Below are positions 46,418 through 61,649 of a stretch of DNA of 64,000 nucleotides, in pieces. Source of the stretch: Bdellovibrionales bacterium (GTDB lineage: Bacteria; Bdellovibrionota; UBA1018; CAIMNF01); the NCBI GenBank assembly GCA_947462765.1, contig CANHQK010000006.1, forward strand, positions 1-64,000. The letters run 5' to 3'. Under the pieces are notes generated by a model, which was not told the origin of the DNA, ran no database searches, and was given only the letters and a program-made list of their open reading frames with translations. A program made the translations under genes and the position numbers. Every line of letters begins with the position of its first letter. The first letter of the stretch is position 1.

Positions 46418-46450
46418 AAAAAAAAGGGGACAGGGCAGCGCCCCGTCCCC
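46417..46450 (-). terminator. Rho-independent terminator at the end of the cox operon
   Basis: Minus strand GGGGACGGGGCGCTGCCCTGTCCCC hairpin followed by T9. Confidence 0.85.
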
Positions 46451-53311: not shown

Positions 53312-53830
53312 ATGAAACGTCAATCCACAATGAGTCAAGTCAATCGACTCGCTGAGAAAATCGGGGTCTTCATCGAATACTGGGGATTCAAACGAATCCA
53401 TGGGATGATCTGGACCCACCTTTACCTCTCTCCGCGTCCAGTATCGGCTCAGGAGCTGATTGCCCGGCTCAAGGTCTCAAAAGCCCTGATCAGCCTTTCT
53501 TTGAAAGACCTGCAACACTATGGCCTCATTCTTCAAACCGAAGACAGCCTGAACAAGAAGAACAAGTTTTACATAGCCAATCCTGATGTCTTCTCGGCCA
53601 TCCGACAGGTCCTGGTCACACGTGAGCAGGAGCTGCTTAAAAAAACCCACGAAGAATACCATCTGCTCAAAACGCTCACGGAGTCAGGAGCGGATACGAA
53701 CATGATCGAACTGGAAAGACTCGGATCACTCGGGCTGATGATCGGAGGGGCGGAGAGCACACTTCAGGCCATCCTGGCATTCTCGGAGATCCATCCGGAG
53801 CAACTCAAGAACATGTTCGACATCAAATAA
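53312..53830 (+). CDS. GbsR/MarR-family transcriptional regulator
   Basis: 'VFIEYWGFKRIHGMIWTHLYLSPRPVSAQELIARLKVSKALISLSLKDLQHYGLI'. Confidence 0.85.
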   Translation: MKRQSTMSQVNRLAEKIGVFIEYWGFKRIHGMIWTHLYLSPRPVSAQELIARLKVSKALISLSLKDLQHYGLILQTEDSLNKKNKFYIANPDVFSAIRQVLVTREQELLKKTHEEYHLLKTLTESGADTNMIELERLGSLGLMIGGAESTLQAILAFSEIHPEQLKNMFDIK

Positions 53831-60865: not shown

Positions 60866-61435
60866 TCAGTAGTGACAGGTGTTGCAAGTGAAAGGCGCGA
60901 CCGGATCGGTCGAGTCCGGATTCTCCGGGTAAATGCTTTTCTTCAGGTATTTCGGGGTCTCAAAACCGCGATGACAGTTCAAACACCAACCCATCGTGAG
61001 CGGCTGAGCCTGGTAGACCTTGTCCATCTCTTTCACATTTCCGTGACAGGTCTCACACGAAACACCCTTGGATACGTGGCGCTTGTGATTGAAGTGAGCA
61101 TGATCGGGAAGCTCGTGGATCCGCACCCACTCAATCGGTTTCCCTTCCGCATAGGCCTTCTTGATTTTTTGCATCCAAGGGCTCTCGGGATAAACCACCG
61201 AGTGGCAGTTCATGCAGGTTGAAACCGAGGGAACCGTCGCATGGGCGCCTTTGTAAGCACCAGTGTGACAGTAACGGCAATCAATATTGAATTTGCCCGC
61301 ATGAAGCTTGTGACTGAATGGGATCGGCTGCTCCGGTTCGTATCCCTGATTCGAGGTTCTCGGAAGTACCTGCCAGAGAAGTGCTGCTACAACTACCACC
61401 CCAAATAGCGCAAATTTGCGCAGACCTGAGTTCAT
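60866..61435 (-). CDS. actA: Alternative Complex III subunit ActA, penta-heme cytochrome c
   Basis: Five CXXCH: CRYCH, CMNCH, CETCH, CLNCH, CNTCH; N-terminal TM. Confidence 0.93.
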   Translation of the reverse strand: MNSGLRKFALFGVVVVAALLWQVLPRTSNQGYEPEQPIPFSHKLHAGKFNIDCRYCHTGAYKGAHATVPSVSTCMNCHSVVYPESPWMQKIKKAYAEGKPIEWVRIHELPDHAHFNHKRHVSKGVSCETCHGNVKEMDKVYQAQPLTMGWCLNCHRGFETPKYLKKSIYPENPDSTDPVAPFTCNTCHY

Positions 61436-61462
61436 GCTGGGTCGCTCCAATTCTTTAGATCG

Positions 61463-61484
61463 AAAAAAACGGGCATAATGCCCG
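61463..61484 (-). terminator. Terminator/attenuator-like hairpin in the actA leader
   Basis: Minus strand CGGGCATTATGCCCG followed by TTTTTTT; ends 28 bp before the actA ATG. Confidence 0.65.
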
Positions 61485-61522
61485 AAATTTCATCAATTTA
61501 ACTTACTGCTGGAATGACCTTG

Positions 61523-61551
61523 AGATTATTGAAAACGCCTTGAGTTGACAA
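61523..61551 (-). promoter_or_regulatory. sigma70-like promoter TTGTCA-N17-TAATCT, candidate act operon promoter
   Basis: Minus-strand hexamers with 17-bp spacing, upstream of the 61463-61484 hairpin. Confidence 0.55.
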
Positions 61552-61649
61552 TGACGAAGTTGTGACAAAGCCATACCCCGAATGATGCGCGCCGCCAGAA
61601 GACTGCGGTTTGCCTCGCGGGCGATAAAAAAATGACGATTTTTCCCGAG

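Follow-up and report, generated by a model that had tools for sequence, protein, structure and literature searches.

A stem-loop in the probable leader of the Alternative Complex III operon of Bdellovibrionales, with intrinsic-terminator form in a three-species clade

In a Bdellovibrionales bacterium, a hairpin followed by a run of uridines lies just before the first gene of the Alternative Complex III (act) operon, which raises the question of whether the operon is controlled by premature termination, whether the hairpin ends transcription of the preceding gene, or whether it is a structural element of the act leader. The window, that is, the whole 64,000-nt stretch of DNA analysed, carries both the element and the operon on its minus strand. 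The relatives named below are mostly metagenome-assembled Bdellovibrionales or Oligoflexia genomes, and the comparison within the genus covers 12 genomes, the window's own included. The operon was assigned to Alternative Complex III because the genes downstream of actA match Pfam NrfD and ActD (PF11821) and the actA product matches Cytochrom_c3_2/Cytochrome_C7; the operon is closely followed by a gene-end terminator (-23 kcal/mol, at 53830). The coordinates that the first-pass annotation had given for the promoter, hairpin, U7 tract and actA ATG (61435) proved correct on direct reading of the sequence. The features concerned are the following:

61551..61568, minus strand: upstream element TTGTCAC-N6-GTCAT, at a fixed position with small variation in 12/12 genus genomes
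61546..61551, minus strand: -35 hexamer TTGTCA, read from the sequence; TTG[TC]CA or TTGCAA in 12/12 congeners
61523..61528, minus strand: -10 hexamer TAATCT, read from the sequence; TAnnnT in 12/12 congeners
61504..61515, minus strand: ATTCCAGCAGTA, putative 5' end of the act mRNA with +1 near 61515, placed from the -10 hexamer; kept in the genus with small variants
61465..61491, minus strand: leader stem-loop with GAAA/UUUU outer arms; homologous hairpins in seven genomes, with covariation
61463..61469, minus strand: U7 tract, confined to the window genome and two sisters
61445..61448, minus strand: Shine-Dalgarno GGAG of actA, read from the sequence; kept in 12 congeners
60866..61435, minus strand: actA, the gene that opens the Alternative Complex III operon, encoding a multihaem cytochrome c (Pfam)

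The stretch 61551-61523 is very probably the act promoter, from which transcription would start near 61515 and yield a leader of approximately 80 nt; an ATTCC-AG-AGTA-like block is found 6-7 nt after the -10 hexamer in the genus genomes. Since the spacer between the two hexamers is exactly 17 nt in 12/12 congeners, act is most likely transcribed through the hairpin, which was one of the two options that the first-pass annotation had considered. Its description of the promoter as being of consensus quality was overstated, as 8/12 letters match (5/6 in the -35 and 3/6 in the -10 hexamer) and a promoter scan of the window did not call it. Conservation begins abruptly at TTGTCAC, and the 80 nt upstream are about 35% diverged even from the nearest sisters. 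The upstream element is a direct repeat with an 11-bp period, the last base of which overlaps the -35 hexamer; as TTGTCAC-N6-GTCATTG, with small variants, it occupies the same place throughout the genus, and the act site is the sole genomic match to TTGTCAC-N6-GTCAT with fewer than three mismatches. Direct repeats of 11 bp are of the type bound by OmpR/PhoB-type regulators, and the element may be viewed as a PhoB-box-like candidate activator site. When the promoter and +1 elements were used to look for a wider regulon, no site other than that of act was convincing. A FliA-type promoter (TTAAG-N16-CCGATA, PMC3627812) does not fit the act promoter. The UUCCA of ATTCCAGCAGTA could pair with the actA Shine-Dalgarno (UGGAG); it is not claimed that the conserved 5' end masks the Shine-Dalgarno, as such pairing is possible in many species and clearly beats shuffled 5' ends only in G003 and G006.

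The hairpin downstream of this promoter has canonical intrinsic-terminator form in the window species. Its inner stem, CGGGCA-TTA-TGCCCG at 61484-61470 on the minus strand, is perfect, and its dG is -8.6 kcal/mol. In a strict search that required a stem of 6 bp or more, 5 or more GC pairs and an abutting run of T6 or longer, it is one of three sites in the window, with 6 bp, five GC pairs and an abutting T7, compared with a mean of 0.1 sites in 30 dinucleotide shuffles, and the terminator-like hairpin described in the first-pass annotation is in this respect real. Of the other two strict sites, one follows an XRE gene (61981); the second, at 46425, is 47 nt past a gene end. A looser scan of the window gave no excess over chance (8 versus 6.1 +/- 2.5), and the strong gene-end terminators of the window reach -21 to -25 kcal/mol, well beyond the value of the leader hairpin. 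A single perfect genomic match of the hairpin plus T5 pattern rules out a widespread repeat or terminator cassette.

Directly upstream of actA lies a small HNH endonuclease gene (61964-61650), and HNH-like coding sequence is found at the same position in the congeners whose upstream sequence was read that far as well as in the same-family genome G012; the HNH-actA linkage is therefore conserved. The second option in the first-pass annotation was that the hairpin serves as the terminator of this gene, with act initiation being unusual; act would then be transcribed from an unusual promoter downstream of the hairpin or inside it. The hairpin does lie on the same strand, 165 nt past the HNH stop codon, in canonical form, but the proposal fails because the conserved act promoter and the hairpin are both downstream of HNH, with the promoter between the two, and because homologous hairpins in sister species lack the U-tract. 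In addition, only 27 nt are left between the U7 tract and the actA start, and an A/T-rich hairpin (61649-61614, -6.1 kcal/mol) already follows directly after the HNH stop codon. A terminator of HNH is consequently regarded as highly improbable.

A leader hairpin of some sort occurs in 9/12 congeners and is homologous in seven. CGGGCA/TGCCCG together with U7 is found in G000, G001 and G009; in G004, G008, G011 and G002 the hairpin can be aligned: its GAAA/UUUC arms are conserved, its interior has diverged, and the U-tract is missing. The hairpins of G003 and G005 are unrelated and also without a U-tract, and G007, G010 and G006 have no leader hairpin. The first-pass annotation had named in advance the absence of the hairpin from the actA leaders of close relatives as evidence against attenuation; 3/12 congeners indeed have none, and the U-tract is absent from 9/12 (G002-G008, G010 and G011). 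Among 18 other relatives, no leader terminator was found upstream of actA in 17, and the match in L023 is weak (-3.3). Immediately ahead of the actA ribosome-binding site in L028 and L029, which belong to another genus of the same order, the folded stretch (-15 to -19 kcal/mol) contains GC-rich hairpins without a U-tract.

The homologous hairpins align in register. In a covariation test on the six distinct sequences, 85% of cells pair and three pairs have changed on both sides, with a score higher than 500/500 shuffles and every slid version. Hairpin stability relative to shuffles gives z of about -2 to -3 in G000, G001, G008 and G002, and z of -4.4 for the unrelated G003 hairpins. Homology and covariation thus imply that the stem is older than the U-tract. 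Furthermore, the U7 clade has U-U mismatches at three pairs (columns 18-20 with 46-48) that are wholly or partly kept in the others, and the U-tract was therefore gained at the cost of pairing.

The explanation considered best, although with no more than moderate confidence, is that the hairpin belongs to the 5' UTR of the act mRNA as a stem-loop that lately took intrinsic-terminator form in the three-species clade. Lying downstream of the 5' end and ahead of the ribosome-binding site, the stem-loop would, by analogy with known leader stem-loops, most likely work after initiation, affecting how stable the mRNA is or how accessible its start site, while being dispensable over evolution. In the clade ancestor, the lower 3' arm would have mutated to U7 with the loss of three base pairs, and in the clade the hairpin may now reduce act expression, with a constant fraction of transcripts ending prematurely; nothing able to act as a sensor or antiterminator was found in the leader. 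Counting against this explanation are the strict terminator form, like that of two clear gene-end terminators, the nearly frozen leader within the clade, and the gain of the U-tract through loss of pairing, a step not expected from maintenance of the stem alone.

The extent of this freezing is considerable: among G000, G001 and G009 the 80-nt leader shows 0-1 differences, while the fourfold sites of actA from codon 24 onward diverge by 34-43%. The lone hairpin change, in G009, keeps the pairing as G-U as well as the Cys codon of a short open reading frame (ORF) described below. This pattern would reflect either strong selection on something in the leader or recombination that homogenised the block. 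Further into actA, at about 61285-61220 (150-215 nt into the gene), dense third-position differences distinguish the window genome alone from both sisters, which suggests a small recombined segment; recombination at the locus is therefore possible. The hairpin might also be neutral or newly inserted in a tolerant leader, where it would merely fold away and leave the leader effectively short. The distance from the conserved block to the ATG is 40-101 nt across the genus, the variation being mostly hairpin and 33-54 nt remaining unenclosed, and both this and the presence of unrelated hairpins in two species and of none in three fit such a scenario, but the in-register covariation and the fact that the leader is almost identical across the clade although synonymous sites have diverged make it improbable.

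A regulated attenuator requires an alternative state. A terminator-form hairpin lies between the probable start site and the regulated gene, but neither a mutually exclusive antiterminator nor a known sensor was found in the leader: the best competing fold has -3.4 versus -10.6 kcal/mol, the inner pairs of the hairpin have a stem probability of about 1, the part of the leader that precedes the hairpin is AT-rich, and an Rfam scan of the leader gave sub-threshold chance matches only, none near the gathering score. One short ORF overlaps the hairpin:

61455..61493, minus strand: possible 12-aa leader ORF MKFRALCPFFSI*, read from the sequence; not kept outside the clade

This ORF is intact only in the three-genome clade, being cut short or missing elsewhere (MKFRA* in G004), and has no clear ribosome-binding site; a conserved translated ORF with regulatory codons, as in a leader-peptide attenuator, was not found. 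Because no alternative state is visible, a structured 5' UTR with possible leaky termination is favoured over regulated attenuation. Conserved attenuation in act operons generally or in the genus is not supported, the terminator not being kept upstream of orthologues (U-tract in 3/12 congeners, one weak match among the 18 distant relatives), and of the attenuation suggested by the first-pass annotation only a form restricted to the clade is still conceivable. In that form, the hairpin and U7 would end most act transcripts in the clade, with read-through regulated by some further factor or by translation of MKFRALCPFFSI. The strict terminator form above chance, the frozen leader, the acquisition of U7 at the cost of stem pairs, and the G009 change that spares both a G-U pair and the Cys codon are in its favour; the missing antiterminator or sensor fold, the failure of the ORF to persist even in G004, the sister species that do without the terminator form, and a dG and stem length under 5'-terminator averages (PMC2965389) weigh against it, rendering it possible but unlikely. 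It is doubtful that the leader stem-loop recently turned into a working attenuator of the Alternative Complex III operon in this one clade; if it did, a respiratory complex would be under premature-termination control that is missing in sister species. Limited open-access literature searches on the regulation of the act operon or Alternative Complex III found nothing relevant.

Like 5'-leader intrinsic terminators and attenuators, the act hairpin has a GC-rich stem with a U-tract directly after it and is placed between the promoter and the gene that opens the operon, but it differs in having no antiterminator and in a U-tract limited to three sister genomes, and at -8.6 kcal/mol and 6 bp it is weaker and shorter than published 5' terminators, which average -16.5 kcal/mol with a 7.0-bp stem (PMC2965389). 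The rimP-leader terminator (PMC2965389) shares the GGGC...GCCC stem core, the U-stretch and the location in a leader, whereas the act hairpin belongs to another operon, has no Rfam match to it, and does not keep the core in G002, G008 and G011. Stem-loops in 5' UTRs are also known to stabilise mRNA, for example those of recA of Acinetobacter and vacA of Helicobacter (PMC7509114). The act stem-loop is similar in its position between the 5' end and the ribosome-binding site and in a structure that outlasts its sequence, with compensatory stem changes among six distinct sequences; unlike them, it is not at the extreme 5' end and is missing in some congeners.

A further signal lies within the start of actA:

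61408..61426, minus strand: actA codons 4-9 (GGT CTG CGC AAA TTT GCG), nearly synonymous-invariant in the genus
61421-61408, minus strand: palindrome GCGCAAATTTGCGC within codons 4-9, unique to actA in its own genome

Across the 12 genus genomes, codons 4-9 are identical in 97% of comparable pairs, versus approximately 45% elsewhere, and the best codon window beyond the start region reaches 68%. As RNA, the palindrome GCGCAAATTTGCGC might fold into a hairpin with a 5-bp stem (GCGCA-AAUU-UGCGC), located 14 nt past the ATG; in G004, the one exception in the block, a G-U pair preserves the stem. No such invariant block was found at the actB start, where few first codons are comparable. The actA block is possibly a start-site RNA element or an operator, and its signal is stronger than that of the leader hairpin and extends throughout the genus.

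The act leader is thus probably structured in an ordinary way, possibly with a brake particular to this lineage. The same promoter is followed in the 12 congeners by a hairpin with U7, a hairpin without U7, or none, which constitutes a clean natural comparison, and RNA 3' ends from two or three such congeners would tell whether the stem-loop became a terminator. More may be gained from the near-invariant synonymous block at the start of actA, which is genus-wide.
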